Assembly: GCA_947481365.1 (NCBI GenBank)
Contig: CANKGI010000003.1
Span: 1-35,700, forward strand
Direction: 5' to 3'
Origin: Bacteroidota bacterium
GTDB lineage: Bacteria; Bacteroidota; Bacteroidia; UKL13-3
Length of the DNA: 35,700 nt
Numbering within the stretch: the first letter of the stretch is position 1; every line of letters begins with the position of its first letter. The position numbers and the translations under genes are program-made. Positions 1,783 to 26,288 of this stretch are shown in pieces. Below the pieces are notes generated by a model. The model was not told the origin of the DNA. It saw nothing but the letters and a program-made list of their open reading frames with translations, and searched no databases.

Positions 1783-2841
1783 ATGCACACTCAAAAGCAA
1801 CTTTTTATAAACGGCAGATTTTTAACACAACGTATTTCGGGGGTTCAATCCTTTGCCCGCGAAGTATGCCGTGAGTTAATGGCGCAAAAGCCAATTACCA
1901 TTTTGGTTCCGGCAAATGCACAATTAATTGATGACGAGTTTGCAAATTGCATTAAACGTGTTGGTTTGTTTGGCGGGCATTTATGGGAACAATTGAGTTT
2001 GCCACTTTTTATGGCACAGCAAAAAAATGCCATGTTGCTTAATTTGTGCAATACCGGTCCTTTGATGGTAAACCAACAAATTGTTACCATTCACGATTTG
2101 GCATTTCTCAAAAATCCATCGTGGTTTCATCCTGTGTTTAGCAAAGTGTATTCGTTTTTGATACCGCAACTTGCCGAGCGAAGCCAATTTATCATCACCG
2201 TTTCGGAAACCATTAAACAAGAAATTGAACAAAAATTTGAAGTTGATGCGAATAAAATAATTGTCGTTGGAAATAAAGTTTCGGCACAATTGCTCAATTC
2301 AAAATCCATTGAAGCATTTGATGAACGAATCCAACCCCAAAACTTTTTTTTAATGGTTGGATCGGATAATCCTCGAAAGAATTTTCTCTTTGTTGAACAA
2401 ATTTTTTCTGAAGAACATGTTGATTCAAAACTGGTGATAGTTGGCGGTAGCGATAAATCATTTAACAACACAACACACACCGAAAATAAAAATATCATCC
2501 GCTTACATTATACCGATAACTCTACTTTGTTGTGGTTATATAAAAACGCCAAAGCGCTTATCAATCCATCGTTGTACGAAGGTTTTGGTATTCCGAATAT
2601 TGAAGCGATGGCAATGGGTTGCCCGGTAATTTGTTCGGATATAAAAGTTTTTAAAGAAGTGTGTGGCAATGCCGCTTTTTATTTTTCACTAGATAAAATT
2701 GATGAGCTAAAAAATTGCATAGCCCAATTGAATGAAAGAAGTGAATTGACAATCGAAAAAATACATACCGGTAAAAATATTTTCGAAAAATATCAGCATG
2801 AAAACCGTGTTGCTAAAATTTTAAAATTATTGGAAGCATGA
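1783..2841 (+). CDS. Glycosyltransferase family 4-like
   Basis: C-terminal EGFGIPNIEAMAMGCPVICSD nucleotide-sugar binding motif of GT4; 4-bp overlap with the next gene. Confidence 0.88.
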   Translation: MHTQKQLFINGRFLTQRISGVQSFAREVCRELMAQKPITILVPANAQLIDDEFANCIKRVGLFGGHLWEQLSLPLFMAQQKNAMLLNLCNTGPLMVNQQIVTIHDLAFLKNPSWFHPVFSKVYSFLIPQLAERSQFIITVSETIKQEIEQKFEVDANKIIVVGNKVSAQLLNSKSIEAFDERIQPQNFFLMVGSDNPRKNFLFVEQIFSEEHVDSKLVIVGGSDKSFNNTTHTENKNIIRLHYTDNSTLLWLYKNAKALINPSLYEGFGIPNIEAMAMGCPVICSDIKVFKEVCGNAAFYFSLDKIDELKNCIAQLNERSELTIEKIHTGKNIFEKYQHENRVAKILKLLEA

Positions 2842-3944: not shown

Positions 3945-5214
3945 AATAATATTTTTTGTACTGTGTGCATTGGCAGGATTTCCTTTGTTGCCTGTTGGTG
4001 CAACATCGGGGCTTATTGCGTTATTTTTTTTACTGAGCATTGTAACTGCAATTTCAAATTACAAAACTTTTAACCTTAAACTTTCTGGCGAACTGCTGGT
4101 TTATATCCTACCTTTTCTCATCATATTTGTATGGACAATATTTATTGATGGTTCGAGTGAAGCACATTTTTATTTACAGCGATCGTTGAGTTTATTGGTT
4201 TTTCCGCTTTCATTTTTTTTGTTGCCTTTTCAGTTTTCACTCAATCAAAAAAATATTTTCAAAATTATTTTCATCACTTCCACGCTTTTGGTGTTGGTGT
4301 ATGGCGAAGTTACAGCCATTCAATTTTTGTTCTCACATGTTGGGCCAAATGAGTTTTGGGCAACTCCGGCAGAGATGTTTAAGCATCCATCATTATCTCA
4401 TTTACTACGTTCAACATTCGAAAACACAACAACCATTCATCCTACTTATGCTTGTTTGTATTTAGGTATTTCATTTTTGTTTGTGTTCGAGTATTTTCTT
4501 GAAAATTTCAGAGAATTTACCGTTTCAAAAAATATTGGTTACGCATCACTACTTATTTTTATTATAGTTCTTCAAGTAATTTTAGCATCCCGAACTCCCT
4601 TTATCGGCACAGTTATTTCGGCTTTTATCTTGTTTGTTATTTATCAAAAAAACAAACTCTATATACTTTGGGCAGGAATCGGAATTGTTGTTTTTACTGT
4701 TTTGCTATTTATGCTGGTTCCATCCTTTTCGGCACGATTAAAAGAAATTTCATTTGAGAATTTTACTTTATCCACTTCAAAAAATGCCGATTCGTTTAAC
4801 CTGCGAACTGGAATTTATAAATGCAGTATTGATATCGTTGAAGAAAATTGGCTAACTGGAGTGGGGCCAGGAAATGTGCAAGCCAAACTTGATGAGTGTT
4901 ATGGAAAAATATCGTCAACCGTTTATAACGAAAGAAAATATGACACCCATAATCAGTTTTTAGATTATTGGGCCGGAATGGGCATTTTAGCGCCTTTATC
5001 GCTCCTGTTCCTGCTTTTGTTCATATCTTATAAAAACCTAGCCTATAAAAATTATATCCCATTCTGTTTGTGTATTTTATTTTTTGCATCAATGTTGACA
5101 GAAAATATTTTGATTAGGCATCACGGGGTTGTAGCTTTCGCCTTTATTATGAGTTTTTATATTTTTACAAAAAGTCATAAAGAAGAATTAGCCAACCATA
5201 AACCGGTAAAATAA
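3916..5214 (+). CDS. O-antigen ligase/polymerase-like multi-TM protein (WaaL/Wzy family)
   Basis: Many hydrophobic segments; 'LTGVGPGNVQAKLDECYG....YDTHNQFLDYWAGMGILAPLSLL' resembles the Wzy_C/WaaL periplasmic loop. Start may be the Met at 3928, because the listed start overlaps the upstream gene by 29 bp. Confidence 0.82.
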   Translation: MSIYMQRVGRIIFFVLCALAGFPLLPVGATSGLIALFFLLSIVTAISNYKTFNLKLSGELLVYILPFLIIFVWTIFIDGSSEAHFYLQRSLSLLVFPLSFFLLPFQFSLNQKNIFKIIFITSTLLVLVYGEVTAIQFLFSHVGPNEFWATPAEMFKHPSLSHLLRSTFENTTTIHPTYACLYLGISFLFVFEYFLENFREFTVSKNIGYASLLIFIIVLQVILASRTPFIGTVISAFILFVIYQKNKLYILWAGIGIVVFTVLLFMLVPSFSARLKEISFENFTLSTSKNADSFNLRTGIYKCSIDIVEENWLTGVGPGNVQAKLDECYGKISSTVYNERKYDTHNQFLDYWAGMGILAPLSLLFLLLFISYKNLAYKNYIPFCLCILFFASMLTENILIRHHGVVAFAFIMSFYIFTKSHKEELANHKPVK

Positions 5215-5216
5215 CT

Positions 5217-6563
5217 TTGACCCGATATTCAAGATATATCAAAGTAATCAGCATCATCAGCGATATCATATTGCTCAATGTTTGCTTTGTGGCTGTGTTT
5301 TATTACAAGTTTCATGCTTTTCACGATCCGTTTACATTCATGCTTTTTTATGTAAACGTGGCATGGATATTTTTGATAGCTGCCATTAAACCTTACGATA
5401 TTTCGCGAACATCAAAGTTGTTTGTGATTTTGCGTTCGTCATTTTACGTAATTACCTCACACATATTATTGGTATTTGCCTATTACGTTTTCCTGCAAAC
5501 GTATCGTTACTCGCGTGAGCTGTTGGTTCTATTGTATTCAAGTTTGTTCATCTTAACATTTGTACTCAAAATAGTTTTCTTTTTTGTACTCAAATGGGCA
5601 CGCGAAAAAGGATACAATTACCGAAATATTATTGTAGTTAATCAAAGTGAAAATCCTGTTGAGTTGCAATCATTTTTTAAAACACATCCGGAATATGGAT
5701 ACAACATCAAAAAAGTAATTACGGCTAAAAATATTCAAGTCAATATTCTTGAAGAGATAAAATCATTTTGCTTACAAAATGAAATTCACGAAATATTCTT
5801 TTCGATGTCGGTAATGGAAAGTCAATCTCTTTTAGATTTGATGAATTTTGCCGAAGATAATTTTATCAAAATTCGTTTGGTTGCCGATTTTAAAGGTGTA
5901 TCTTTTTCGGAAATGGCACTCGAAAAATTTGGAGAAGTACCTGTTTTAAAAGTGCTCACCACACCACTTGACGATTGGGATAAGCAGTTACAAAAAAGAG
6001 CTTTTGATATCTTTTTTTCGTTGATGATTATGATTTGTGTGCTCAGTTGGCTTATACCAATTCTTGCCATCATCATTAAACTAACATCACGCGGACCGGT
6101 ATTTTTTAAACAACAACGAACAGGTAGAGACAATCGTCCTTTTTGGTGTTACAAATTCAGAACGATGTACGTAAATGAAAAAAGTGATACGGTTCAGGCA
6201 ACTCAAAATGATCCGAGAATTACTGCAATTGGAAATTTTTTACGTGACTCAAGCATTGATGAAATGCCACAGTTTTACAATGTACTAATTGGCGATATGT
6301 CGGTTGTGGGGCCACGTCCACATATGCTTAAACACACCATAGATTTTTCTGAAGAACTAGATAAGTTTATGGGTCGTCATCAAATTAAACCTGGCATTAC
6401 CGGATTGGCACAATCAAAAGGTTATCGTGGTGAAACATCCGACTTTGAAAAAATAAAAAATCGTGTTAAGCTCGATTTGTTTTATGTAAAATATTGGTCG
6501 TTTACACTCGATATAAAAATCATTTTCAACACATTGTTTTCTTTATTTAATACCAACTCATAA
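5217..6563 (+). CDS. Polyprenyl-phosphate glucose/hexose-1-phosphate transferase (WcaJ/WbaP type)
   Basis: N-terminal TM segments, then C-terminal RAFDIFFSLMIMICVLSWLIPILAIIIKLTSRGPVFFKQQRTGRDNRPFWCYKFRTM...DEMPQFYNVLIGDMSVVGPRPHM...KPGITGLAQ. Start codon is TTG, 2 nt after the upstream stop. Confidence 0.9.
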   Translation: MTRYSRYIKVISIISDIILLNVCFVAVFYYKFHAFHDPFTFMLFYVNVAWIFLIAAIKPYDISRTSKLFVILRSSFYVITSHILLVFAYYVFLQTYRYSRELLVLLYSSLFILTFVLKIVFFFVLKWAREKGYNYRNIIVVNQSENPVELQSFFKTHPEYGYNIKKVITAKNIQVNILEEIKSFCLQNEIHEIFFSMSVMESQSLLDLMNFAEDNFIKIRLVADFKGVSFSEMALEKFGEVPVLKVLTTPLDDWDKQLQKRAFDIFFSLMIMICVLSWLIPILAIIIKLTSRGPVFFKQQRTGRDNRPFWCYKFRTMYVNEKSDTVQATQNDPRITAIGNFLRDSSIDEMPQFYNVLIGDMSVVGPRPHMLKHTIDFSEELDKFMGRHQIKPGITGLAQSKGYRGETSDFEKIKNRVKLDLFYVKYWSFTLDIKIIFNTLFSLFNTNS

Positions 6564-6569
6564 ATCTGG

Positions 6570-8465
6570 ATGCTCAATCAAATATTTGATAAAATAAGAA
6601 AAGTAAAAAGATCGCAAGGACAAATGTGGATGAATGGCAATTTCACTTTTTTCAGGCTGTTTATCATGTTGAAATCGCGCACTGGACAAAAGAAAATACT
6701 CAAATTTATTATCAAAGTCATTCAATTTATACTTCAACTAGTATTTGGTATTAAGACGAAAGAAACAAAAGATTATGAGTTATGGATGAAGAAAAATTAT
6801 CCTGATGAACAAAAGTTAAACCAATACAAAAATGAACTTTCCTCCTTTTCATTTCAGCCTAAAATAAGTATCATTTTACCTGTTTATAATACTCCTATAA
6901 ACTACTTAATAGAAGCACTCGATTCGGTTATCAATCAAATTTATCCCAATTGGGAATTGTGTATTTCTGATGATTGCTCTACTGATAATATGATCCGTGA
7001 AATGATTATTGAATATGCAGCAAACGACAATCGAATCAAATATGTTTTTAGAGATGTAAATGGCCACATATCATTAAACTCGAACAGTGCGCTTGAAATT
7101 GCTACAGGTGATTATATTACTTTTTTAGACCATGATGATAAGCTTTCATTAGATGCACTTTTTCAAAATGTAAAAATTTTAAATAACAACAGAGAAATTG
7201 ATTTCATTTATTCTGATGAAGATAAAATAGACAAGAAAGGTCATCATTTTGCACCACATTTTAAACCCGACTGGTGTCCGGATAATCTCTTGTCAAGAAA
7301 TTATATTTGCCATCTTGTTGTCGTAAAAAAATCGCTCATTGATCAGGTAGGTGGATTCAGAGCAGGCTTTGAAGGAAGTCAGGATTACGACTTACTGCTG
7401 CGATTAACTGAAATTGCTAAAATAATATATCACATACCAAAAATACTTTATCACTGGCGACTGCACAGTGAATCAACATCATCAAACATTGATGCAAAAC
7501 CATACGCATTTAATTCGGGTGAACTTGCACTTCAGAAAGCAATAGAGAGAAGAGGAATAAAAGGCAAAGTAAATTTGATTAAAAATTCTCATGGTTTTTA
7601 TACTATCAGATATGATATTTTTAATAAAGGAAAAGTTTCTGTTATCATCCCTACAAAAGACAAAGCCGATTTATGTGAAGTAATTATCGAATCGATTTTC
7701 AGACTAACAAGTTATCCCGATTTTGAAATTATCCTGATTAATAATAACAGCAGCGAACAATCATTTTTTGATTTCGTAAAAAAGTGGGAAGAAAAAGAAC
7801 CCGAACGTTTTAAATGTATTCACGATAATGATGTATTTAATTACTCGCGTTTAATTAACAACGGAGCTAAAGTTGCCAAAGGAGAATATTTTTTGTTACT
7901 GAACAACGACATGGAAGTGATTCATGAAGATTGGATGACTGCACTTGTTGAATATGCACAATTTGAAACAAGCGGAGCCGTAGGTGCCCGACTAATTTAC
8001 CCCAATGATACCATACAACATGCAGGAGTAATTATTGGCTTAGGAGGAATAGCTGGTCATCATCATGTGATGTTTGATAAAGATGCTCCAGGATATTATT
8101 TCTACTTAATTGCCACAAGTGATTTTTCGGCTGTTACTGCTGCTTGTATTATGATTAACAAAAATAAATTTAATGAAGTTGAAGGGTTTGATGAAAAACT
8201 TGCGGTTGAGTTTAATGATGTTGATTTTTGTTTGAAGCTTAAAGAAAAAGGATACAACAATATATACCTTCCTCATGTAACGCTGTATCATTACGAATCT
8301 ATTTCTAGAGGGCATCCGCACCTTACAAAAAAATCATATCAGCAGCATTTGAAAGATGTAAATCTATTTAAAAGTAGGTGGCAAAAATATATAGATAACG
8401 ACCCTTGTTATAATCCTAATTTATCAAAAATATCGAGCGAGTACAAGGTGAATTTAGATGACTAA
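6570..8465 (+). CDS. Two-domain family 2 glycosyltransferase (GT2-GT2)
   Basis: Two GT-A starts: 'ISIILPVYNTPINYLIEALDSVINQ...DDCSTD' and 'VSVIIPTKDKADLCEVIIESIF...LINNNSSEQ'; DxD-like FLDHDDK and LLNNDMEV. Confidence 0.88.
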   Translation: MLNQIFDKIRKVKRSQGQMWMNGNFTFFRLFIMLKSRTGQKKILKFIIKVIQFILQLVFGIKTKETKDYELWMKKNYPDEQKLNQYKNELSSFSFQPKISIILPVYNTPINYLIEALDSVINQIYPNWELCISDDCSTDNMIREMIIEYAANDNRIKYVFRDVNGHISLNSNSALEIATGDYITFLDHDDKLSLDALFQNVKILNNNREIDFIYSDEDKIDKKGHHFAPHFKPDWCPDNLLSRNYICHLVVVKKSLIDQVGGFRAGFEGSQDYDLLLRLTEIAKIIYHIPKILYHWRLHSESTSSNIDAKPYAFNSGELALQKAIERRGIKGKVNLIKNSHGFYTIRYDIFNKGKVSVIIPTKDKADLCEVIIESIFRLTSYPDFEIILINNNSSEQSFFDFVKKWEEKEPERFKCIHDNDVFNYSRLINNGAKVAKGEYFLLLNNDMEVIHEDWMTALVEYAQFETSGAVGARLIYPNDTIQHAGVIIGLGGIAGHHHVMFDKDAPGYYFYLIATSDFSAVTAACIMINKNKFNEVEGFDEKLAVEFNDVDFCLKLKEKGYNNIYLPHVTLYHYESISRGHPHLTKKSYQQHLKDVNLFKSRWQKYIDNDPCYNPNLSKISSEYKVNLDD

Positions 8466-11980: not shown

Positions 11981-13204
11981 TTAAACAATTTGCCAGCTAG
12001 AATTTACATTAACAAATCCTGCATTATTAGTAAGATATTGTGTGTTATTTCCAATGTCTAAAATTTCTATGTCGAATGCATTTGGATTGTGGTATATATT
12101 TGACTTTTCGCCTACACTTATCCCAAATGCAAAATGGTAATTATTTGCCCTTAAATTGTGTTTTACTTCACATATAATTTCATTTTCACCTTTAACAATT
12201 GAAACAGGTCCTCTTGTTGTAAAAACGGGTATCTCATCTATTGATAAACATCCAATTGCTACGCTAATATTTTCAAAATCTTGCTTTGAATCAATTTTAA
12301 ATTTTATCTTGATGTTTTCATCAAATTTTATTTGGTTGGTGTTATTAAAACCATTTAGAATTTCAATTTTCAAAACTCTAATTATATCATCACCGTATAC
12401 ATAATCTGAGCAATCAAAATGTGACGAAGTGTTTATGCCAGTTTTAAGATAATTTTCGATGGCGTGGGTTGCACTTCCAATTATCTTAATTGATCCATTA
12501 TGTAATAATATTCCTTTATTACATAAGGCTTTTACTGCAGCCATATTATGACTCACAAATATAACTGTTCTTCCTTCTCCCGAAACGTCTTTCATTTTGC
12601 CAAGACATTTCTTTTGAAATTCTGCATCACCAACAGCCAGTACTTCATCCACAATTAATATTTCGGGCTCAAGATGAGCAGCCACAGCAAACGCCAATCG
12701 AACATACATACCCGATGAATAACGCTTTACTGGTGTATCTAAAAATCTTTCCACTTCAGCAAATGCAACAATCTCATCAAATTTTTTCTGTATTTCATTT
12801 TTGCTCATTCCTAAAATAGAGCCATTCAAAAAAACATTTTCTCGTCCGCTGAGTTCGGGATGAAAACCGGTACCAACTTCGAGCAAACTGGCAACACGTC
12901 CTTCAATTTTAATTCGTCCATGTGTAGGAGTAACTATCCTGCTTAAAATTTTTAGTAAAGTTGATTTTCCAGCTCCGTTTCTTCCAATTATGCCAACACG
13001 ATCACCTTGATTTATATCAAACGAAACATCATTTAAAGCCCAAAATGTTTCTTGTGAAGCTGACTGATCAGCATCTTTCTTTTTAAAAATAGATTTAATA
13101 TTATTGGTTATGTGCTCGCGAAACGAATCATTATGCCTTATCTTCTGATGTTGCAGAACATAGCTTTTACTGATATTTTCAACTGTAATAATTGTGTTAC
13201 TCAT
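11981..13204 (-). CDS. Polysaccharide ABC transporter ATP-binding protein with C-terminal Wzt-type domain
   Basis: Walker A GRNGAGKST, signature YSSGM, Walker B ILIVDEVLAVGD; about 150-aa C-terminal beta-rich extension (DDIIRVLKIEIL...FAFGISVGEKSNIYH) as in Wzt_C. Confidence 0.92.
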   Translation of the reverse strand: MSNTIITVENISKSYVLQHQKIRHNDSFREHITNNIKSIFKKKDADQSASQETFWALNDVSFDINQGDRVGIIGRNGAGKSTLLKILSRIVTPTHGRIKIEGRVASLLEVGTGFHPELSGRENVFLNGSILGMSKNEIQKKFDEIVAFAEVERFLDTPVKRYSSGMYVRLAFAVAAHLEPEILIVDEVLAVGDAEFQKKCLGKMKDVSGEGRTVIFVSHNMAAVKALCNKGILLHNGSIKIIGSATHAIENYLKTGINTSSHFDCSDYVYGDDIIRVLKIEILNGFNNTNQIKFDENIKIKFKIDSKQDFENISVAIGCLSIDEIPVFTTRGPVSIVKGENEIICEVKHNLRANNYHFAFGISVGEKSNIYHNPNAFDIEILDIGNNTQYLTNNAGFVNVNSSWQIV

Positions 13205-13229: not shown

Positions 13230-14078
13230 CTAAATAATATCGGCAAAAGTCTTTTCCATTTTACGAAAATACCAAAGACCAATAATTAACAGAAATATGC
13301 TAATTGCACACGACACTAAAAATCTTTCAAAATAAAATGGCGTATTGCCGCCAAGAATACACCACCTAAAACCATCAATTACACCAACCATTGGATTAAG
13401 TGCATATAGATATTTAGCAAACATTGGAATTTTTGCACTGTTATAAATATCACTGCTGCTAAAAGCAATGGGTGATACATACAAACCAAATTGTATGATA
13501 AATGGAATGATAAAACGGAAATCACGATAACGAACGTTTAATGCTGCAATAATTAAACCTAGTCCAATAGAAGTTATTAAGTTTAATATCAAAAAAAATG
13601 GCAGATACAGCATTTTTATATCAGGACTAAAACGATATAAAACCATTATTACGATAAGAATTATAAATGAAATCAGAAAATCAATTAAACAAACAATTAC
13701 CGTGCTGATTGGAACAATTAATCTGGGGAAATAAACTTTGGTTAATAGATTTGAATTTACAATAAGTGAATTACTCGAATCGCTAAATGCTGTTGCAAAA
13801 AACTGCCAAGGCAAAGTGGCTGCACAAACAAGCAAAATACGTGGAACACCTTCGGGGACATTTGAATTAAAAAGCCAACCGATAAACCACATCACAAAAA
13901 TGGTAAGCAGCGGACGAATAATGCTCCAAAGCAATCCAATTGCAGTTTGTTTATAGCGAACTAATATGTCGCGCCAAGCAAGAAAATATAACAATCCGCG
14001 AAATTGCCATAAATCCTGCCAGTAATTTTTATTCTCACTATCCGGATCAATTATAATTGTTCGGCTTTTATTAATCAT
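13230..14078 (-). CDS. Polysaccharide ABC transporter permease (Wzm-like)
   Basis: WQFRGLLYFLAWRDILVRYKQTAIGLLWSIIRPLLTIFVMWFIGWLF; LNPMVGVIDGFRWCILG; adjacent to the ATPase. Confidence 0.92.
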   Translation of the reverse strand: MINKSRTIIIDPDSENKNYWQDLWQFRGLLYFLAWRDILVRYKQTAIGLLWSIIRPLLTIFVMWFIGWLFNSNVPEGVPRILLVCAATLPWQFFATAFSDSSNSLIVNSNLLTKVYFPRLIVPISTVIVCLIDFLISFIILIVIMVLYRFSPDIKMLYLPFFLILNLITSIGLGLIIAALNVRYRDFRFIIPFIIQFGLYVSPIAFSSSDIYNSAKIPMFAKYLYALNPMVGVIDGFRWCILGGNTPFYFERFLVSCAISIFLLIIGLWYFRKMEKTFADII

Positions 14079-15384: not shown

Positions 15385-16704
15385 TCATTCAACATTCCTT
15401 TCACCTGAATGATAATGTGGAAAATATTTATTCATAAAAGTCTTGTCGTTAGCAATTTCGGGAGGCAGAAGTAATGCTGAATTTACAAAATACTCGAGCA
15501 TTTCATGTAAAACAATATCTGGTTTATTATCAATCACTCGCGAAACAGGAATTGTTTCCATCCATGCGTAAGTTGAAGTTTTGAAAGTGGGTGTAAGAAA
15601 ATTCCTGAGATGCTCTGAATAACTATCACGAACTACAAATATTTTCAAATGATTCACTTCATGCTCCATTTTAAAAGTAAAATAATTCCCTACAAGATGC
15701 ACTGTATCATAATCACCAACAACTAGAGGTGGCTGTATATTTTTGAGATGGTAATAAAATATTGGAGAAGAAATCTGATCACTAAACCCAAATTGCGTTT
15801 GCAAATCTCCTCCTAATAAAGTTGATGAATCGATTGTAAAATCTTCTGCCTGTAAAATTTTAGTATCTGGAAAATCAACTTGAATTTTTTGCATAACTTT
15901 TTGGTATGCTAAAAATGCTCCGAATTCATTCCAATGTGTATCGGTTATATAATAAGTTGGTCGAATATTTTTTCCCTCAATGAGTTCCTTTCTGCAATCA
16001 ATAAATTTTATAATAGTATCCTGTTGTAAATAGGTATACACCTGATCGAGTTTAGAAAACTTTAACTGATTTCTCAGAATAATCGGCATGTTCTCGGGAT
16101 AAATTCTTGACTTAACAGGCGCAATCATAAAGTAATATTTTATCCCCCTGTTGTCAAACCATTTAGTAACAATTTGAAGATTTATTTTAATGGTTTTTAA
16201 CTCATCATTTGTATATGGAACACTGGTACATTCAATATATTCATTACCTGAATTGTACAACCAATTCTCTTTGCCTATAAGAACTTTTTGCGGCAGCGGA
16301 GAAATATTCAGAAAAATAAATTTGAATTTATTTATGGCCATCACCGAAATATTTCGGTAAGCAAATCTGTCGTTAAAATAATCTTGAAATTGAAAAAATA
16401 CTTTCCAAATATTTTCGGTTTGAAAAGTTGGAAACTCGGCTAAACTTCTTTTCTCTAAACTTGATTTTTCCTTCTCACCCAACATTGGAAAATAAATAAT
16501 GATAAGAAATGACAGTATAAAAAATAGTTTGCTAAATGAAAGCAATGCGATGTGTTTCTTAAGTAAAAATATACTTAGAACAGCTATCACAAAACTTAAA
16601 CCCAAATTGAGTATGAGCGAAGTTGTAAGTTGAGCTATAACGATATAACATAACATCGAAAGATAAATGAACAACAAACTATATTTTAACTTGCTGCTCA
16701 TCAA
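15385..16704 (-). CDS. AlgJ/AlgX-like SGNH-type protein, probable polysaccharide O-acetylation component
   Basis: FFQFQDYFNDRFAYRN, YITDTHWNEFGAFLAYQKVM (DxH), FVVRDSYSEHLRNFL (Ser); 4-bp overlap with the upstream MBOAT. Confidence 0.82.
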   Translation of the reverse strand: MMSSKLKYSLLFIYLSMLCYIVIAQLTTSLILNLGLSFVIAVLSIFLLKKHIALLSFSKLFFILSFLIIIYFPMLGEKEKSSLEKRSLAEFPTFQTENIWKVFFQFQDYFNDRFAYRNISVMAINKFKFIFLNISPLPQKVLIGKENWLYNSGNEYIECTSVPYTNDELKTIKINLQIVTKWFDNRGIKYYFMIAPVKSRIYPENMPIILRNQLKFSKLDQVYTYLQQDTIIKFIDCRKELIEGKNIRPTYYITDTHWNEFGAFLAYQKVMQKIQVDFPDTKILQAEDFTIDSSTLLGGDLQTQFGFSDQISSPIFYYHLKNIQPPLVVGDYDTVHLVGNYFTFKMEHEVNHLKIFVVRDSYSEHLRNFLTPTFKTSTYAWMETIPVSRVIDNKPDIVLHEMLEYFVNSALLLPPEIANDKTFMNKYFPHYHSGERNVE

Positions 16705-18134
16705 AATCTGAAATATATAAATGGGTTATAAGTACCTGAAACCACGCTCAAGGCGGAGTAAACAAAAATCAAAATGAGTGACACTGATTTTATTGTACGA
16801 AAAGTTGACTTTACTGTTTGTATAGATATTGTTGACTGGTAAAGAATTTGAACGGTCTTTTTAAGCATAAAATTTATTCCGTTAACTGATAAAATTAAAC
16901 CTAGCATACAGCAAAATATATTTTCGCGATTTAGAAACATATCAATTGAGTAAATACTGTTCTTATTATAAATAAACAAGGACTGAATAAATGTTATCGA
17001 CTTTTCTAATGTTTCGGATCTGAAAAAAACCCAAGCCAACACTACCACGAAAATGGTGTAAAAATGCATAATAAAATTTCCTCCTCTACGAAGAAACTTT
17101 TCAAAACCCAATCTTTCGATAATCATAAAAAAACCATGAATCAAACCCCAAATAACAAAATTCCAGCTTGCACCATGCCAAAGGCCTGTAACAAAAAATA
17201 CAAATATCAGGTTAAAATAAACGCGTGATTTACTCACTCTGTTTCCGCCCATTGGAATGTATAAATAATCTCTGAACCAATTTGAAAGTGATATATGCCA
17301 ACGTTGCCAAAACTCGCGAACTGATTTTGCCTTATATGGAAAATTAAAATTCTCTAGAAAATCAAAACCAAGCATTTTACCTAATCCTATTGCCATATCA
17401 GAGTAACCCGAAAAATCAAAATACAATTGAAGTGAATAAGAAATAATAGCAAACCAAGTAGCTGAAGTTGATAATTGAGCCGGGCCTATATCAAATAATA
17501 AATCAGTTGTATAACCTAACGAATTGGCAATTATCACTTTCTTTCCCATGCCAATTATAAATCGTTGAATTCCTAATTGAAATTGTGCCGAATTCAAAAA
17601 TCTACCTGTAAACTGATAGGCTATATCTTTATATCGAATGATAGGTCCAGCAACAAGTTGAGGAAATAGGCTTATATAGAGTGTTAAGTCAACAAATGAT
17701 TTCTGAACTTTATTCTCTTTACGATAAACATCAATCAAATAAGAAATGCTGTGAAAAGTATAAAAAGAAATTCCAACAGGCAACTTCACTTTTGCAAATT
17801 TTATCGGGTCGATATGAAAATCCACCAAAAGGTAATTGATATTTTCTACTACAAAACTGCTGTACTTAAAAATGACCAACAACAATAAATTAACAAATAC
17901 GCCAACCGAAATGGCTGTTTTTGTTTTGCTCCTGTCAATCCATTTTCCAATAAAATAATTAAATGTAATGGAGAGCATCATTAAAACAATCATCTCTCCT
18001 TCACCAAAAACGTAAAACAAAATACTGAGAATTACCAGTACAGCATTTCTGAATTTAGAATTACGTGAAAGATATGCCAGTAGTAGCGTTACCGGCAAAA
18101 AGAAGAAAAGGAAAAACGGTGAACTGAATACCAT
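16701..18134 (-). CDS. MBOAT family O-acyltransferase (AlgI-like)
   Basis: PQLVAGPIIRY, LYFDFSGYSDMAIGLGKMLGF, FWQRWHISLSNWFRDYLYIPMGGNR, LWHGASWNFVIWG. Confidence 0.93.
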   Translation of the reverse strand: MVFSSPFFLFFFLPVTLLLAYLSRNSKFRNAVLVILSILFYVFGEGEMIVLMMLSITFNYFIGKWIDRSKTKTAISVGVFVNLLLLVIFKYSSFVVENINYLLVDFHIDPIKFAKVKLPVGISFYTFHSISYLIDVYRKENKVQKSFVDLTLYISLFPQLVAGPIIRYKDIAYQFTGRFLNSAQFQLGIQRFIIGMGKKVIIANSLGYTTDLLFDIGPAQLSTSATWFAIISYSLQLYFDFSGYSDMAIGLGKMLGFDFLENFNFPYKAKSVREFWQRWHISLSNWFRDYLYIPMGGNRVSKSRVYFNLIFVFFVTGLWHGASWNFVIWGLIHGFFMIIERLGFEKFLRRGGNFIMHFYTIFVVVLAWVFFRSETLEKSITFIQSLFIYNKNSIYSIDMFLNRENIFCCMLGLILSVNGINFMLKKTVQILYQSTISIQTVKSTFRTIKSVSLILIFVYSALSVVSGTYNPFIYFRF

Positions 18135-19058
18135 TTAAATTTTTATTTTTTTAATATCAGCTGAAATTAATTTCGAAAAATATGTAGCGCCATCTTTATT
18201 CAAATGTTCCTGATCTGAAAAATATGCGGCCTCAGTCAGGCTATTCGAATAGTCAATTAATTGATATGTTGAATCAATAACAGATTGAATTCTGTTCTTA
18301 AATCCTTTTGTTGATTTACGAAACTGAGGAGGTAAGCAAAACAACAATTGAATATTATTTTCACTGCATTTTTTCTGAATATTTAAAATGGAATTTCGAT
18401 AATCAAGATTCATTCTTAAAACAGAAAGATTGATATTGTTCATTTCAAAAACAGTATGCTCATCTTCCCCTTTTTTGTCAACCAATGTTGCTCCAAAGGA
18501 ATTTATATTTGTTGTTCGTGCGTCAGGTTTCTCTTTGCCAAAAAGCAAATATTTCAAAGCATTGATGAAATTTACATTTTGCCGATACGTATACGAAATG
18601 CTTGTTGCCAATTCGTTTTTTCCAAGTTCAGAATTTATTTTTTTACAGATAAATGGGTTGTCAACGTAAGGATACAAGACATCTTTCCTGAAAATGATTC
18701 CGCTTTTTGTGTACAACGCAGCGTAATCATCAACATTATAAATAACCAGTTTTGGTTTGTGTGCCGATTTTAAAACCAAGTCAAGTATGGTTTCATGGAA
18801 AATTGGATTTGAACCACTTTGTCCTAGATTATAACAACTCAATCCTGTATTTAATTTTATCTCTTCGGGCGAGTAATCGTTTAGTGCTTCTGATGAGCCA
18901 ATAATAACAACATCTGCCTCAATTTTATTTTCAAGAATCAGTTCAATACGGTTATCGTATTTCTGCTTTTTTGAAAACACAGATAAAACATATCCAATAA
19001 ATATATCACCTGAAATGAATATTAAAATGAAGAGTATATATTTTATATATTTTTTCAT
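18135..19058 (-). CDS. Membrane-anchored SGNH-hydrolase-like protein
   Basis: N-terminal TM MKKYIKYILFILIFISGDIFIGYVL; VVIIGSSEALNDYSPEEI; C-terminal YFSDQEHLNKDGATYFSKLI (DxxH). The listed ORF starts at 19103, but the Met at 19058 avoids overlap with the upstream MBOAT that ends at 19069. Confidence 0.72.
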   Translation of the reverse strand: MKKYIKYILFILIFISGDIFIGYVLSVFSKKQKYDNRIELILENKIEADVVIIGSSEALNDYSPEEIKLNTGLSCYNLGQSGSNPIFHETILDLVLKSAHKPKLVIYNVDDYAALYTKSGIIFRKDVLYPYVDNPFICKKINSELGKNELATSISYTYRQNVNFINALKYLLFGKEKPDARTTNINSFGATLVDKKGEDEHTVFEMNNINLSVLRMNLDYRNSILNIQKKCSENNIQLLFCLPPQFRKSTKGFKNRIQSVIDSTYQLIDYSNSLTEAAYFSDQEHLNKDGATYFSKLISADIKKIKI

Positions 19059-19068
19059 ACTTCTCATC

Positions 19069-20541
19069 TCAAAATTGAAAATATACAAAAGGTGTTTCAA
19101 CAATATTCGACATCAGCATTATCGAAAATGCTGCAAAAAAGTAAATGCCAAATCGCTTAACCTGCGGAACTCTTTCCAAATATTCGTCTAATGTGGTGTT
19201 TCTTAATTTCCATTCAAAGTAAAAAAAAGCTGCGACAAAAAGGATGAGAACAGTGAAGGTTGTAAAATCGGTTCCGAGATACAAAAGATTTTGTCTCATG
19301 TTATTGGGATTATGCCAAATTTTCGATAACGAATCGCCAACATCGGTAAACATATTTAAAAAAAGTATGTAAGAATCATGAATATTTTTCGACCTGAAAA
19401 AAAATCCTCCAAATGCAAAAAGATGATAAATACAAATTGCTTGAATAATGTGTCTAATACTCGAATAATTTTTTAGCCAAGTTTTATTAATCAATTCTTT
19501 CCTATAGTCGCTTGTAGCTTTGGTGTATATTACGATGATACCATTGTATACGCCCCATGCAATGAAAGTCCAGTTTGCACCGTGCCAGAAACCGCTAATT
19601 AAAAACACAAACAAGAACACAAGCTGCCACTTCCATCTTTTTCTGATTAAGGGAAACAGTAAATAATCTCTAAACCAATTCATGAGAGATACGTGCCACT
19701 TACTCCAAAAACTATTAAACGATTTAGCAAAAAATGGAAGATCAAAATTTACCATTAAATCAATACCGAGTAATTTTGCCGAACCTCTTGCTATATCAGA
19801 ATACCCTGAAAAATCGCAATATACCTGCCATACAAAAAACAATAAAGCCAGATAAACTGAAGGTCCTTTTGAATTTTCGGGATTATCAAAAACAAAACTT
19901 ACAAGCACATTGATTTGATCGGCTATCACAATTTTTTTAAAGAGCCCCATTAAAATTAACCGTAACCCTTTAACAATATTCGACCATTCAAATTTTTGAT
20001 TGATATAAAACTGTGATAGTAAATGCTGTGGTCGTTCGATAGGACCTGCAACAAGCTGAGGAAAAAACATTACGTACAATGCATAAATTCCAAAATGACG
20101 CTCGGCTTTTTGTTTCCCTTTATAAATTTCGAGCGTATAACTCATTGCCTGAAAGGTGTGGAATGATAACCCGATTGGCAATAAAATGGATAAAAAAGGA
20201 AATTTATAGGTATGAATATTTAACGATTGAAATAATGCTTCAATGTTTTCGGTAAAAAAATTATAATACTTAAAAACACATAAAACACCAATGTTTGCAA
20301 CAAGACTTAGTTGCAGGTAAATTCCTTTTTTGTTTTGCGGAGCTGCTTCAATTAATATTCCAGCCAAATAATCTACCATGATTGTGAAGGCTAATATGAG
20401 AATATAAACCGGCACAAAAAACATATAGAAATAACAGCTGGCTGCTAAAAGTAATACCCATCGATATTTATGCGGAAGCACATAGTAAAATAGTGTTACT
20501 AATGGCAAAAAAATTAAATATTGGATGGAGTTAAATAGCAT
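19069..20541 (-). CDS. MBOAT family O-acyltransferase (AlgI-like), divergent subtype
   Basis: PQLVAGPIERPQHLLSQF, VYCDFSGYSDIARGSAKLLGI, FWSKWHVSLMNWFRDYLLFPLIRKR, FWHGANWTFIAWG. Confidence 0.93.
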   Translation of the reverse strand: MLFNSIQYLIFLPLVTLFYYVLPHKYRWVLLLAASCYFYMFFVPVYILILAFTIMVDYLAGILIEAAPQNKKGIYLQLSLVANIGVLCVFKYYNFFTENIEALFQSLNIHTYKFPFLSILLPIGLSFHTFQAMSYTLEIYKGKQKAERHFGIYALYVMFFPQLVAGPIERPQHLLSQFYINQKFEWSNIVKGLRLILMGLFKKIVIADQINVLVSFVFDNPENSKGPSVYLALLFFVWQVYCDFSGYSDIARGSAKLLGIDLMVNFDLPFFAKSFNSFWSKWHVSLMNWFRDYLLFPLIRKRWKWQLVFLFVFLISGFWHGANWTFIAWGVYNGIIVIYTKATSDYRKELINKTWLKNYSSIRHIIQAICIYHLFAFGGFFFRSKNIHDSYILFLNMFTDVGDSLSKIWHNPNNMRQNLLYLGTDFTTFTVLILFVAAFFYFEWKLRNTTLDEYLERVPQVKRFGIYFFAAFSIMLMSNIVETPFVYFQF

Positions 20542-20770: not shown

Positions 20771-21886
20771 ATGAACACAAAAAGAAACAAATATTTTTTG
20801 CTATTCTTTATGGTTGTTGCATTCTTTCCTATCATTCAGGAAATTTTTCAACCCTTTAAATTAGTAGGATTATCAGGTGCCTTCGAAAATCATCAAGCCC
20901 CAGACTTTTCTACTCAAAATTTTTTAGACGGAAAATATCAAACAGGTGCTGATGAATATTTGAAAGAAAATACAGCCTTCCGTGCAGATATGATTAGATT
21001 GAGGAATCAAGCTAATTACAGTTTTTTTGGCAATATCAATACCATATTAACTTTAGGTAAGGAGCATTATATTTTCGATCCTAGTTACATTTCGGCTCTA
21101 AATGGCAATGATTTTCTAACTGATTCTATCCGTGATATAGAGACAAATTGTTTAATCAAATCATTACATATTTTAGATTCACTTCATATTCCGCTTATCT
21201 TTTGTATTGCGCCAAACAAAGCTTCATTTTACAATGAATTTTTGCCTCAAAAAACTGTTGAAGGAAATAAAACCAATCAAAAATATTTTGAAAAATTACT
21301 TACAGAAAACCATGTAAATGTGCTCAATTTCGATAGTTGGTTTAAATCTATTAAACAACAAAGCAAGTATCTGCTGATGCCAAAATATGGAGCACATTGG
21401 ACAATTTATGGTGCTTCTCTTGCAGGTGATTCACTATTTAAAATGGTTGAAAAAGTAAAGCAAAAGAAATATGCTTCGTTTTCGGTTTCCAGTTATGATG
21501 AATCATCAAAAGCAAAATACACAGATGATGATTATTTGCCAGCGCTAAATCTAATTGCGAGATGGAATTCTCCAATGATGGCATACCCTCAATTAAAATT
21601 TAATACGGGCGAAAAGCCAAACATCCTTGCCGTTTCTGATAGTTATTTCTGGAGTTTTTACGAACTCGAAATCATGCAAAATTGCGCTTCTCCTAAATCA
21701 GCAATGTGGTATTATAACAAATCGGTTTTTGATTATATGCGTGAAAAAAAATCGGAAAGAAATAATGCAATCAGTTATCAAGATTTAAAAAATAGAGATG
21801 CCATAATTATTTTGGCAGCAGCACCTAGCTTGAAAAATTTCGGATACAATTTTTTTGACCAACTTTCAAGCATCTCGTCAAAATGA
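20771..21886 (+). CDS. AlgJ/AlgX-like SGNH-type protein
   Basis: N-terminal TM; DEYLKENTAFRADMIRLRNQANYSFFG; LMPKYGAHWTIYGASLAGDSLF; ILAVSDSYFWSFYELE. ATGA overlap with the next gene. Confidence 0.8.
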   Translation: MNTKRNKYFLLFFMVVAFFPIIQEIFQPFKLVGLSGAFENHQAPDFSTQNFLDGKYQTGADEYLKENTAFRADMIRLRNQANYSFFGNINTILTLGKEHYIFDPSYISALNGNDFLTDSIRDIETNCLIKSLHILDSLHIPLIFCIAPNKASFYNEFLPQKTVEGNKTNQKYFEKLLTENHVNVLNFDSWFKSIKQQSKYLLMPKYGAHWTIYGASLAGDSLFKMVEKVKQKKYASFSVSSYDESSKAKYTDDDYLPALNLIARWNSPMMAYPQLKFNTGEKPNILAVSDSYFWSFYELEIMQNCASPKSAMWYYNKSVFDYMREKKSERNNAISYQDLKNRDAIIILAAAPSLKNFGYNFFDQLSSISSK

Positions 21887-23373
21887 AAAAATATTCGCTC
21901 TATATTTTTATCATTATTCTCATGAGCAGCGGTATTTATTTTCATTTTAGTTCGTGCCACGAAGAAATGCCGAATGATTGTGATCAGTTTGGTTATTTAA
22001 ATTTATCGAAAGCATTTGATGAGCATAAAGTTTTTACGGCTCACGCCAATAGACCATATTTAGATGATTTACTCGACACACTTCGAAAATCAAATTTAGA
22101 TGAACGCGAATTTAGCTGGATGGTAACACCTCATGCCTATTACGTTTTACCTCACACTAACAAAGTCATAAACATGTACTCGCCCGGAACATCATTTGTT
22201 TTACACTTGATACCTATTGAGTATCGTAAAAGAATGTTCCCTGTGTTAGCTATATTTTTCCTCTTACTTTTTTCAATCATTGCATTGTATCGTGCTAACA
22301 ACAATACTTTTGGTTGGGCTGATATTATTTTACTATTATTTGCATTTTACATTACCGAAATAGTTCCTTTCAGAGCTGAGTTTGAACGCATCAATTCATT
22401 ATCCATCACATTTGGTTTATTGCTTGCTGCTGGGATATTATTAAGAAACAAACCACTGTTGAGCTGTTTCTTAATTGCACTTTCGGCAAACTTCAGGTAT
22501 GCAAATTTACTGCTGTTATTGCCTATCATTTTGTTCATCCCTCTTCCAAAAGTAATTTCAGTAAAGAAAGTTTTCGACATAATAAAAATCGGAATTACAT
22601 ATTTCGTAGTTACTCTTATCGCCATTTTGCCTCATTTAATTTATACGTATTTTTTATTGGGAAATCCGTTTAAATCAACTTATGCAGCAATTGATACTGC
22701 TATGAGTATGGATGTTTTAAAAAATTTGAATTTCTATTTTAATTACTCTCAACCTTGGTTCATATTTCATTTATTGCTGGTTGGTGTGATTGCTTATTTT
22801 GCCTATATACAAAAAACAACATGGCGATTTGTATTGTCGTTACTGGCCTTTCCGGTAATTAATTATTTGTTCTTCATTTTTAAAATGGTATCGATGAATT
22901 ACTATCCATATGGAAGTGCGTTTATTTTACTCGGTGCCATTTTATATATTTTAAAAGATGTAAATGTAAGTTTGCAGCAAGCTAAAAGGATTCAGATTGC
23001 ATGTGTTTTTATTTCCTTTTTAACATTTTCGTTTGGTATTATTTCATATTCATCAAAAAACCATCAATCATTTATCGAAGCAAAAAATGAGGTAAAAGGT
23101 TTGTGTTCATATGATATTATTTGGGGTGATTCTTATCCCGGAACTTCCGAATATGTTTGTACTAACAATGGCTTCAGGTATACATGGTCGACCATGAATG
23201 CCAGAATTATTGCAATGAAATTTCTTCACAACAGAAAATATTCACAGGCATTTATTCTTGATGAAATTCCCGTTGATGAAAAAATAATTGAAAGCGAAAT
23301 ACAGTCATGTAATTTGCTATATCATAAAATTCGAGACCCACATTTAGGAAATATTTTAATTATTGATAAATAA
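21883..23373 (+). CDS. Multi-TM membrane protein, paralog A; GT-C-like by topology and motif (tentative)
   Basis: Acidic motif CDQFGYLNLSKAFDE in the first extracytoplasmic loop, many TM segments with FRYANLLLLLP, C-terminal soluble tail. Clearly paralogous to 23382-24872. Confidence 0.6.
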   Translation: MKKYSLYIFIIILMSSGIYFHFSSCHEEMPNDCDQFGYLNLSKAFDEHKVFTAHANRPYLDDLLDTLRKSNLDEREFSWMVTPHAYYVLPHTNKVINMYSPGTSFVLHLIPIEYRKRMFPVLAIFFLLLFSIIALYRANNNTFGWADIILLLFAFYITEIVPFRAEFERINSLSITFGLLLAAGILLRNKPLLSCFLIALSANFRYANLLLLLPIILFIPLPKVISVKKVFDIIKIGITYFVVTLIAILPHLIYTYFLLGNPFKSTYAAIDTAMSMDVLKNLNFYFNYSQPWFIFHLLLVGVIAYFAYIQKTTWRFVLSLLAFPVINYLFFIFKMVSMNYYPYGSAFILLGAILYILKDVNVSLQQAKRIQIACVFISFLTFSFGIISYSSKNHQSFIEAKNEVKGLCSYDIIWGDSYPGTSEYVCTNNGFRYTWSTMNARIIAMKFLHNRKYSQAFILDEIPVDEKIIESEIQSCNLLYHKIRDPHLGNILIIDK

Positions 23374-23381
23374 AAAATGAA

Positions 23382-24872
23382 TTGATGAATAAATACATTT
23401 TCTATTTAATTTTATTGATTTTATGCAGTACTGGTTTTTATTTAAAATTTCAAAAAAACCATCAGGATATCCCTATGCGTTGTGATGAATTCGGATACAT
23501 GAATTTAGCAAAAGTATTTGATGAAAACATCGCGTATGTTGAGCATACGAAAAGACCATACATGCCTAAACTTCTCGACACCTTGAGAAAATCATCGATA
23601 ACAGAAGAAGAAATAGATTGGATGGTCGTTCCGCATGCTTATTATGTTGTACCGAACACAAATAAAATTGTTAACCAATATCCTCCGGCAACTTCATGGT
23701 TGTTGAGTTTATTTCCTCTTGAACATCGTAGAATGCTGTTTCCATTAATTGCTGTATTTATTTTTTTATTGTTTCCTTTTTTATCTCAACTTAATATAAA
23801 ACAAAAAAAGGTAAACTGGACAGATTGTGCACTTGTCTTATTTGTTTTTATCATGTCTGTTAGCGTACCGTTCATAACAGAATTTGCTCGAATTAATTCG
23901 CTGGCATTCACGTTTGGATTACTATTAACGGCAGGAATGCTTGTTGAACGAAACACAATATTGGCATTCTTTTTAATTGCATTAACAATTAATTTCAGAC
24001 CAGTAAATATGCTGATGTTAATTCCAATAATCACGTTTATTCCCATCTCAACTTGGCTACGCGAAAAAAATTACACGGCTTTTATTACTGCTATTCTGAA
24101 ATATGTTGGTCTGCTTATTCTTGCTGTTCTTCCTTACTTTGTGTATGTGTATTTGTTGTTTGGAAATCCATTTATGTCAACGTATTCTTCTTACGATACT
24201 ACCGCAAATAACAACCTCTTTGAGAATATGCTTTTTTACTTCAACATAAATCGGCATTGGTTTATTTTTCATTTAGTGGTTGTTGGTGTATTACTTACTT
24301 TGTCGTTACTTAAAATTACTTCCTATACATTCTTTTTTCAAGCACTATTTTTTCCGATATTCAATTATGTTTTTTTTATCTACCATGATATTCATTTAGA
24401 TTATTATCCATATGCATCTTCCATTATTTTACTTGGCATCTGTATAGCTCAAATTCAAAAAATTCCTTACAAAATCAATCATACTAAAATTGCTCTTGTA
24501 TTTAGTTTACTTATCGGCATCACTATTTTTTGTGATGGATTATATACTTCATACAATAACCCGGTTCGTTCTTTTGAAGATGCAAAAAAAGACTATTCGT
24601 GCTTATGTAATTATGATATTGTTTGGGGAGAATTATTAACGGGAAGTTGCGAGTATGTATGCGGAAACAATGGATATAAATACAGTCCAACATCACCAAG
24701 GGCAAGAAAAATAGCTATGAAATTTTTACACGACCATCATTACAAACAAGCGATTTTATTAAACGATAATTTGGTAGATAAGCAAACAGTGATTGAAGAA
24801 GTTTTGTCTATTAATTTAAAATATCATATTGTATTTGATAACATTGTAAAAGAAATTTTAGTATTAGAATAA
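23382..24872 (+). CDS. Multi-TM membrane protein, paralog B; GT-C-like by topology and motif (tentative)
   Basis: CDEFGYMNLAKVFDE, RPYMPKLLDTLRKS, VVPHAYYVVPNTNKIVNQYPPATS, NFRPVNMLMLIP; alignable end to end with paralog A. TTG start listed; an ATG lies at 23385. Confidence 0.6.
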   Translation: MMNKYIFYLILLILCSTGFYLKFQKNHQDIPMRCDEFGYMNLAKVFDENIAYVEHTKRPYMPKLLDTLRKSSITEEEIDWMVVPHAYYVVPNTNKIVNQYPPATSWLLSLFPLEHRRMLFPLIAVFIFLLFPFLSQLNIKQKKVNWTDCALVLFVFIMSVSVPFITEFARINSLAFTFGLLLTAGMLVERNTILAFFLIALTINFRPVNMLMLIPIITFIPISTWLREKNYTAFITAILKYVGLLILAVLPYFVYVYLLFGNPFMSTYSSYDTTANNNLFENMLFYFNINRHWFIFHLVVVGVLLTLSLLKITSYTFFFQALFFPIFNYVFFIYHDIHLDYYPYASSIILLGICIAQIQKIPYKINHTKIALVFSLLIGITIFCDGLYTSYNNPVRSFEDAKKDYSCLCNYDIVWGELLTGSCEYVCGNNGYKYSPTSPRARKIAMKFLHDHHYKQAILLNDNLVDKQTVIEEVLSINLKYHIVFDNIVKEILVLE

Positions 24873-26288
24873 ATGGTTTTTAGCAGCATAACATTCCTTG
24901 TGTATTTTTTGCCTTTCTTTTTGTTGGGGTATTATTTAGTACCCGACAGATTTAAAAATCGTTGGCTGGTTCTTGGAAGTCTTTTATTTTACAGCTGGGG
25001 TGCACCAAAATTCTTACCGGCTGTAATTGTTAGCTGCCTAATTGATTTTATTTGCGCATTAAATTACAAAAAGAAATACGGAAAATTCTGGTTTGTATTT
25101 TCTATTGTTTCAAACGTTTTGATGTTGGTATATTTTAAGTATGCCAATTTTTTTGCCGAGAACATTAATTCATTAACTGAAATTTTAGGTGGAAACAGAT
25201 TTCAATGGAGTGCTATTATTCTTCCTATTGGAATTTCATTTCTTACATTCCAAAAAATTAGCTACCTCACTGATGTATATCGTGGAGATTGTGAACCACA
25301 GAGGAACTTCACAAATTATCTTCTCTTTATCATTTTGTTTCCTCACTCTATTGCTGGTCCAATTATTCGTTACAAAGAAATTAGCGAACAGCTTGTAAAC
25401 CGCTTTAAGTTCATCACACCCGATTATATTATTTTAGGACTTACCCAATTTATCATTGGATTAAGTAAAAAAGTTTTGCTTTCAAACACATTAGGTGAAC
25501 AGGCAAATTCTATTTTTAATTTAAACTTAAATGAACTCGATTTTACGAAATCGTGGATTGGCATTTTATCTTATACGTTTCAAATATATCTCGACTTCTC
25601 AGGTTACTCTGATATGGCTATCGGACTTGGAAAAATGATGGGATTTAGAATTCCTGTCAATTTTAATTTCCCATATACATCAAAAAGCATAACCGAGTTT
25701 TGGAAACGTTGGCACATTACTTTGGGTAATTGGATGAAAGATTATTTATACATCCCGTTAGGTGGTAATAAAGTTACCATTAACAGAACTTACATCAATC
25801 TTTTGGTGGTATTTATTTTATCTGGTTTTTGGCATGGTGCAAGCTGGAGTTTTATTATTTGGGGAGCTTATCACGGCAGCTTTTTAATTATCGAAAGATT
25901 ATCACTCTCTAAAATTTTAAAAAGAATTCATCCGTCCATTTCAGTCACATATACATTTTTGGTGGTGATGATTGGATGGGTATTTTTTCGTTCGGCTGAA
26001 TACAACGATGCAATATTATTTATCAGAAAAATGTTTGATTTCGGAAGAATCGATTTCGCATTTTTGAGTACGTTAAACAATCGTTATTATTTTGTTCTAA
26101 TTACCGCATTTGTTTTCTCTTTTCAATCTGAAAAAATACAGCTTCAACTCAATGCTGTTTACGAAAAACAAATAACGATTAAAGGTTTTATTTGGATAAC
26201 TTATTTCGCTTTGCTACTGTTGTATCTGCTCAATTTAGGAGAATTATTCGCAACCGGATTTAATCCGTTTATCTATTTTAAGTTTTAA
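24873..26288 (+). CDS. MBOAT family O-acyltransferase (AlgI-like)
   Basis: PHSIAGPIIRYKEIS, IYLDFSGYSDMAIGLGKMMGF, FWKRWHITLGNWMKDYLYIPLGGNK, FWHGASWSFIIWG. ATG immediately follows the upstream TAA. Confidence 0.93.
   Translation: MVFSSITFLVYFLPFFLLGYYLVPDRFKNRWLVLGSLLFYSWGAPKFLPAVIVSCLIDFICALNYKKKYGKFWFVFSIVSNVLMLVYFKYANFFAENINSLTEILGGNRFQWSAIILPIGISFLTFQKISYLTDVYRGDCEPQRNFTNYLLFIILFPHSIAGPIIRYKEISEQLVNRFKFITPDYIILGLTQFIIGLSKKVLLSNTLGEQANSIFNLNLNELDFTKSWIGILSYTFQIYLDFSGYSDMAIGLGKMMGFRIPVNFNFPYTSKSITEFWKRWHITLGNWMKDYLYIPLGGNKVTINRTYINLLVVFILSGFWHGASWSFIIWGAYHGSFLIIERLSLSKILKRIHPSISVTYTFLVVMIGWVFFRSAEYNDAILFIRKMFDFGRIDFAFLSTLNNRYYFVLITAFVFSFQSEKIQLQLNAVYEKQITIKGFIWITYFALLLLYLLNLGELFATGFNPFIYFKF

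Follow-up and report, generated by a model that had tools for sequence, protein, structure and literature searches.

Bacterial surfaces owe their identity to branch sugars and acyl groups, and the two kinds of periplasmic chemistry concerned, decoration by GT-C glycosyltransferases and acylation by MBOAT-SGNH pairs, are each well known. A four-gene operon from a Bacteroidota bacterium (lineage UKL13-3; GenBank assembly GCA_947481365.1, contig CANKGI010000003.1) raises the question of what two large, paralogous membrane proteins do between the two partners of such an acylation pair. The operon spans positions 20771-26288 of the window, that is, of the whole stretch of 35,700 nucleotides analyzed (forward strand, positions 1 to 35,700). 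We consider it likely, though well short of certain, that this operon acts in the periplasm as a tailoring cassette, providing both branch-sugar addition and O-acylation for a surface polysaccharide that a Wzm/Wzt ABC transporter exports. Its genes are the following.

20771..21886, + strand: SGNH_A, 371 amino acids, an AlgJ/AlgX-like SGNH protein, N-terminally anchored
21883..23373, + strand: GTC1, the diverged copy, 496 amino acids, a predicted GT-C-like membrane glycosyltransferase
23385..24872 (or from 23382), + strand: GTC2, the canonical copy, 495 amino acids (496 from the earlier start), a predicted GT-C-like membrane glycosyltransferase
24873..26288, + strand: MBOAT_A, 471 amino acids, an O-acyltransferase (Pfam MBOAT, E 8.9e-28)

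All four open reading frames are complete and tightly coupled. SGNH_A and GTC1 share an ATGA overlap at 21883-21886, and the TAA of GTC2 is followed without spacing by the ATG of MBOAT_A (24870-24875), both read directly from the letters. The initial annotation was right about the reading frames, their order and these two junctions, and misplaced the third start by 3 base pairs. Homologs of GTC2 begin with MNKY or MNKH at the ATG at 23385, which is therefore preferred to the TTG at 23382; the gap between GTC1 and GTC2 is thus 11 base pairs, not 8. GTC1 and GTC2 share 42% identity over their entire length.

Neither GTC1 nor GTC2 matches any family in Pfam or NCBIfam, including the PMT_2/ArnT-type Pfam families. 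The fold of GTC2 was approached through a structural model, calculated with AlphaFold2 from a 13-sequence alignment (predicted local distance difference test score, pLDDT, 89.1; predicted template-modeling score, pTM, 0.88). The model consists of about 11 transmembrane helices, as read from its secondary structure, the first of which (TM1) comprises residues 3-26. Two to three short juxtamembrane helices follow TM1, beginning at D34 in the motif CDEFGY, and the protein ends in a mixed alpha/beta domain of ~100 residues. D34 is invariant in 13/13 family sequences, and E35 is present in all except GTC1; that is, an acidic residue opens the first periplasmic loop, a feature of GT-C enzymes. When the model was compared with the PDB using Foldseek, the five best matches were PglB, a glycosylphosphatidylinositol-transamidase chain, PglB again, Pmt4, and AftB, with probabilities of 0.93-0.99; the E-values (0.009-0.07) and TM-scores (0.28-0.43) are those of a distant match. 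On this distant match, the polytopic domain, with its juxtamembrane helices behind TM1, is assigned to the GT-C fold; the GT-C enzymes named in the literature include ArnT, Pmt, and PglB (PMC11127046). The model supports the view, guessed at in the initial annotation, that the middle proteins are GT-C glycosyltransferases of predicted fold, and genes for polyprenyl-phosphate-sugar synthases adjoin members of the family elsewhere.

A transporter or flippase role of the middle proteins, in place of glycosyl transfer, is very improbable. Both are large and polytopic and lack a Pfam match, and the E-values of the fold matches are weak, as such a reading would allow. However, no transporter fold in the same Foldseek list exceeds a probability of 0.21, whereas the leading GT-C enzymes reach 0.93-0.99; the juxtamembrane helices, with their invariant acid after TM1, fit a GT-C protein; and donor-synthase genes adjoin the GT-C gene in two relatives.

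Among known GT-C systems, ORF12 of C. youngae O1 (GT136) invites comparison, made here by description. ORF12 has 11 transmembrane helices, a helical domain after TM1 and a C-terminal domain after TM11; D31, E34, H106, and R349 are essential, whereas the C-terminal domain, a beta-rich carbohydrate-binding module, is disposable for catalysis (PMC11127046). GTC2 resembles it in the GT-C fold, the helix count, the domains after TM1 and TM11, the acid near TM1, and the setting in a cluster that depends on an ABC transporter. Unlike ORF12, the C-terminal domain of GTC2 is alpha/beta, with no beta-rich carbohydrate-binding module (a feature not stated to define GT136), and the GTC genes are placed between SGNH and MBOAT genes. 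Neither the phosphoribose synthase nor the MATE flippase of the three-component GT136 system was noticed in the window. With ArnT, Pmt, PglB, and AftB, the resemblance is that of the GT-C fold, by the structure comparison in which PglB, Pmt4, and AftB rank among the best.

The genomic distribution indicates how firmly the four genes belong together. A scan of 84,980 species with two short conserved patterns, which may miss distant members and so yields an estimate of rarity, recovered nine loci of the GT-C family. Among 64 genomes of the order, the family occurs only in the genome of the window and in two others, G016 (the genome of locus L012) and G045 (that of L011). No member was found in the other 395 genomes of a phylum sample of 396, and 384 genomes of the class of Pelagicoccus yielded the known member and one marginal partial match, with no further full-length sequence. 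The order SGNH-GTC-GTC-MBOAT is present in the window, G016, and G045; loci L010 and L018 (Vicingus) have SGNH-GTC-MBOAT, with a single GT-C gene, and L013 reads SGNH-GTC up to the end of the contig. Thus, SGNH-GTC(-GTC)-MBOAT is found in 5/5 Bacteroidota loci in which both flanks are readable. Because the order recurs in two further genomes of the family, and the form with one middle gene in two more Bacteroidota, the arrangement is not a chance one, and the conservation anticipated for the operon is borne out. The tandem of paralogs is real in the window, but the general unit is SGNH, one or two GT-C genes, and MBOAT, of which the duplication is a variant. The contig of G045 (L011) is labelled as a Chitinophaga pinensis metagenome-assembled genome, whereas it is placed in the family of the window; the public name may be wrong.

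The outer genes of the operon were examined for the hallmarks of acyl transfer. MBOAT_A has the WHG histidine and the C-terminal hexapeptide FIYFKF, and all three MBOAT proteins of the window share the WHG histidine and an F[IV]YFxF terminus. The domain, the catalytic histidine (WHG), and the C-terminal tyrosine hexapeptide of the AlgI/PatA/DltB group are thus all present. In PatA, a tyrosine of the C-terminal hexapeptide undergoes auto-acetylation and then carries the acyl group over to the partner SGNH protein (PMC12148441). SGNH_A matches Pfam ALGX with E 2e-5, just below the curated cut-off, and AlgJ (4o8v) with E 5.5e-5 in a profile search of the PDB. Its structural model (pLDDT 71) is poor in the N-terminal third; Foldseek matches it to AlgJ (E 2.2e-7) as well as to AlgX and PatB1, i.e., to an AlgJ-type fold. 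The motif PxK (as APNK), GAHW in place of DTHW, and the serine of SDS can be located, and the serine, histidine, tryptophan, and PxK are conserved.

The pair is also embedded in a larger locus, whose other features are these.

19069..20541, - strand: MBOAT_B, C-terminal FVYFQF (Pfam MBOAT, E 3.1e-21)
18135..19103, - strand: SGNH_B, a DUF1574-like SGNH protein, partner of MBOAT_B (Pfam DUF1574, E 3e-5, below the cut-off)
16701..18134, - strand: MBOAT_C, C-terminal FIYFRF (Pfam MBOAT, E 6.1e-29)
15385..16704, - strand: SGNH_C, an AlgX/AlgJ-family SGNH protein with intact DTHW (Pfam ALGX, E 1.2e-19)
13230..14078, - strand: a Wzm-type ABC-2 polysaccharide exporter permease (Pfam ABC2_membrane, E 4.7e-16)
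11981..13204, - strand: a Wzt-type ATPase (Pfam ABC_tran, E 1.4e-23; weak Wzt_C, E 1.9e-6)
1783..8465, + strand: polysaccharide core genes by Pfam, namely two GT4, a Wzy_C/ligase-like protein, an initiating sugar-phosphate transferase, and a two-domain GT2

Two additional MBOAT-SGNH pairs (15385-20541) are divergent from the operon, making three pairs in this locus. The initial annotation described the four-gene operon, which itself holds up, but did not include the divergent half of the module. All eight genes recur in this order in G016 and G045, where one additional membrane gene separates the two halves; the MBOAT_B and SGNH_B orthologs of L011 are 57% and 44% identical, respectively. Counterparts of these polysaccharide genes, largely the same set, lie directly upstream of the module in G016 (L074, next to L009), and most genes of the polysaccharide cluster surround it in Vicingus.

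For this locus we infer the following sequence of events. The Wzm/Wzt transporter would export the polysaccharide chain before tailoring. GTC1 and GTC2 would then add branch sugars to this chain from undecaprenyl-phosphate donors, which an unlinked Dol-P-Man-synthase-like enzyme may supply. MBOAT_A would draw on cytoplasmic acyl-CoA for an acyl group, most likely acetyl, and load it onto the tyrosine of its C-terminal FIYFKF, from which SGNH_A would pass it to the glycan; the B and C pairs would add acyl groups as well. In other systems, O antigens exported by ABC transporters are known to receive side branches in the periplasm (PMC11127046). Because the operon coupling holds in five loci, the data suggest that both activities of the operon are directed at one glycan; a shared target residue would be a guess. 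In a stronger version, the GT-C family would be joined to the MBOAT-SGNH pair physically as well as genetically, and the canonical and diverged copies would add a sugar that the SGNH protein, which lacks the catalytic aspartate of AlgJ, then acylates. We regard this coupled machine as unlikely.

Several results weigh against a tailoring cassette. The GT-C profile found no relative among the PDB sequences, only a chance match, so that ArnT, Pmt, PglB, and AftB show no detectable sequence relation to the family there or in Pfam; alignment of the middle proteins with the PMT_2 proteins of their own genome using hhalign is not significant (E 0.11); and no fold match of GTC2 reaches E 1e-3, the top TM-score being about 0.43. 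No gene for a donor synthase or flippase was found in the window. In Verrucomicrobiota and Nitrospinota (L014-L017), no relative of MBOAT or SGNH was seen in the flanks of the GT-C gene, although L014 extends over only 3.6 kb, and in the genus g13 relatives of SGNH_A and MBOAT_A occur without a GT-C gene, beside unrelated genes. Finally, SGNH_A does not have the Asp-His-Ser triad of AlgJ and AlgX with its (R/K)TDTHW motif. The company of MBOAT and SGNH genes, on which the initial annotation had staked its case, is thus kept inside Bacteroidota and not seen outside. The GT-C chemistry therefore does not require MBOAT or SGNH, and the two parts, each found alone elsewhere, are separable building blocks that are joined in the Bacteroidota module.

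This separability bears on the possibility that the GT-C proteins, like ArnT or PMT, act on another acceptor (lipid A or core, a glycolipid, or a protein), and that co-regulation alone accounts for their sharing an operon with the acyltransferase. GT-C enzymes with polyprenyl-linked donors are established as acting on all these acceptors, and in Verrucomicrobiota and Nitrospinota the family lies outside any evident acylation locus. Nevertheless, the Bacteroidota genes sit within a polysaccharide cluster with Wzm/Wzt and glycosyltransferases (the window, L009 with L074, and L018), and we consider action on another acceptor quite unlikely.

The missing triad concerns the acylation step of the proposed cassette. 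In AlgJ, the triad is D190-H192-S288, with the aspartate and histidine within (R/K)TDTHW, and PxK forms a second motif (PMC4148444, PMC9487903); mutation of this aspartate abolishes alginate acetylation in vivo (PMC4148444). Glycine replaces this aspartate (KYGAHW) in all six SGNH_A orthologs, and GxHW is also found in all seven more distant relatives. Because the catalytic aspartate of AlgJ is replaced in every member seen, catalysis by SGNH_A is uncertain, and the protein is classified here as AlgJ-like, not as AlgJ, since one defining AlgJ feature fails. The MBOAT and AlgJ-like pair recognized at the outset thus stands on its Pfam, profile, and fold matches and on the MBOAT motifs, with the qualification that the subfamily has glycine at the catalytic position throughout. 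Members of this aspartate-less subfamily (window 20771-21886; L069-L073) are present with or without a GT-C gene nearby, and in g13 genomes (L070, L071) one MBOAT gene is flanked by two of them.

It is possible, though not likely, that SGNH_A only relays or scaffolds, and that the acyl group of MBOAT_A reaches the glycan through SGNH_C. The contrast between GxHW in all relatives of SGNH_A and the intact DTHW of SGNH_C points in this direction, as does the precedent of alginate acetylation, in which AlgJ and AlgX hold separate roles (PMC4148444; PMC9487903). Conversely, SGNH_A retains the serine, histidine, tryptophan, and PxK; and the flanks read at L018 and the g13 loci contain no SGNH_C gene, so that at these loci SGNH_A either works alone or has help from a distant gene. 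Relative to AlgI/AlgJ/AlgX, PatA/PatB, and DltB/DltD, then, the MBOAT signature (WHG and F[IV]YFxF) and an AlgJ-fold partner with PxK, serine, histidine, and tryptophan are shared, whereas GxHW instead of DxHW, GT-C genes between the partners, and three pairs in one locus are not.

How the two GT-C copies of the window differ was examined by comparing the 13 sequences. GTC1 differs from the canonical residues by E35Q, A42S, Q98M, and H334K. A42, Q98, and H334 are identical in 10/13 sequences, and the changes to S, M, and K are confined to GTC1 and the second copies in G016 and G045; no other pairing of copies has shared-change columns of this kind. E35Q is restricted to GTC1. The canonical copy is the second in the window and the first in G016 and G045, and single-copy loci all carry canonical residues. 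In the tree of the copies, which is unresolved, the altered copies do not group together, and over the whole sequence 21 sites favor grouping by genome, against 11-12 and 8-9 for the alternatives. A single duplication kept in the same gene order is not supported, given the unresolved trees and marker residues that pair GTC1 with the second G016/G045 copy in swapped order, and grouping of GTC2 with that second copy is rejected (p 0.034). The shared changes could therefore be convergent or preserved through gene conversion; that is, an ancient duplication with gene conversion and repeated convergent change would both fit.

Differentiation of the copies argues against mere dosage. Because of it, GTC1 and GTC2 probably add different sugars or link them to different positions; a heteromeric pair is an alternative. 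Another is that the altered member of each tandem (GTC1 in the window, the second-placed gene in G016 and G045) is non-catalytic or regulatory, so that only one sugar is added. Its A42S, Q98M, and H334K at otherwise identical positions, E35Q in GTC1, and the canonical residues of every single-copy locus would agree with this. Against it, both copies retain D34 and most other conserved residues, the altered copies do not form one clade, and the site patterns favor grouping by genome (21 versus 11-12). We hold a non-catalytic or regulatory copy to be rather doubtful, and retain two differentiated enzymes as the preferred reading.

A remaining question is where the donor sugars would come from. 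In Pelagicoccus mobilis (L016), a Dol-P-Man (dolichol-phosphate-mannose)-synthase-like gene lies directly upstream of the GT-C gene on the same strand (E 7.5e-23), and in L013 such a gene is divergent beside it (E 1.3e-8). Outside the window, its genome encodes a homolog of the L016 enzyme, 58% identical, and one GtrA-family protein; because such genes are common, they demonstrate only the possibility of a donor route. A GT2 gene at 14436 was considered as the maker of a polyprenyl-phosphate donor and dropped, as its PDB relatives are ordinary polysaccharide GT2 enzymes with no Dol-P-Man synthase among them. The arrangement in L013 and L016 recalls the Gtr systems of serotype conversion (GtrA/GtrB/Gtr-type), in which an undecaprenyl-phosphate-sugar synthase, a flippase, and a polytopic glycosyltransferase add periplasmic side branches. 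In contrast to those, the genome of the window has unlinked donor genes, two differentiated glycosyltransferase copies, and an operon shared with an MBOAT-SGNH pair.

No report of the SGNH-GTC-MBOAT arrangement was found in open-access papers, which is weak evidence of absence. As far as we found, the GT-C sequence family, its placement between acylation partners, the differentiated tandem, and the aspartate-less SGNH subfamily are new. A predicted GT-C family that is uncatalogued in Pfam and NCBIfam and lies in an acylation operon would enlarge the set of glycosyltransferase families by one. The operon would also offer a compact setting in which to look for a physical link between glycosylation and O-acylation in the periplasm, and its SGNH subfamily a direct test of the triad requirement in acyl transfer.

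Further observations concern neighboring families. A second uncatalogued family of membrane proteins, with an invariant GYDGQF motif near the N-terminus and no Pfam match, adjoins the GT-C family across phyla (genes at L008:6705-7868, - strand; L018:7540-8733, - strand; L016:11550-13178, + strand; L014:2023-3573, - strand). It is found beside the GT-C family in G016, G045, L010, L014, L016, and L018, and in the Pelagicoccus row the Dol-P-Man-synthase-like, GT-C, and GYDGQ genes are consecutive; it is absent from the window and was not found in its genome. The GYDGQ protein is possibly another GT-C partner. Homology between the two families is not claimed, the hhalign match being weak (E 0.002, probability 14%).

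The pairing of a DUF1574-like SGNH gene with an MBOAT gene (window 18135-20541) is also found in G016 and G045, and suggests a role in O-acyl transfer. DUF1574 is listed without a known function (PMC9487903), and the pair gives this SGNH family a testable one. A DUF268/methyltransferase-like gene (11146-11886, - strand) adjoins the Wzt gene with the weak Wzt_C match, and could conceivably encode a methyltransferase that modifies chain ends. Seven MBOAT matches were counted in each of G016 and G045, compared with one or two in most genomes of the family.

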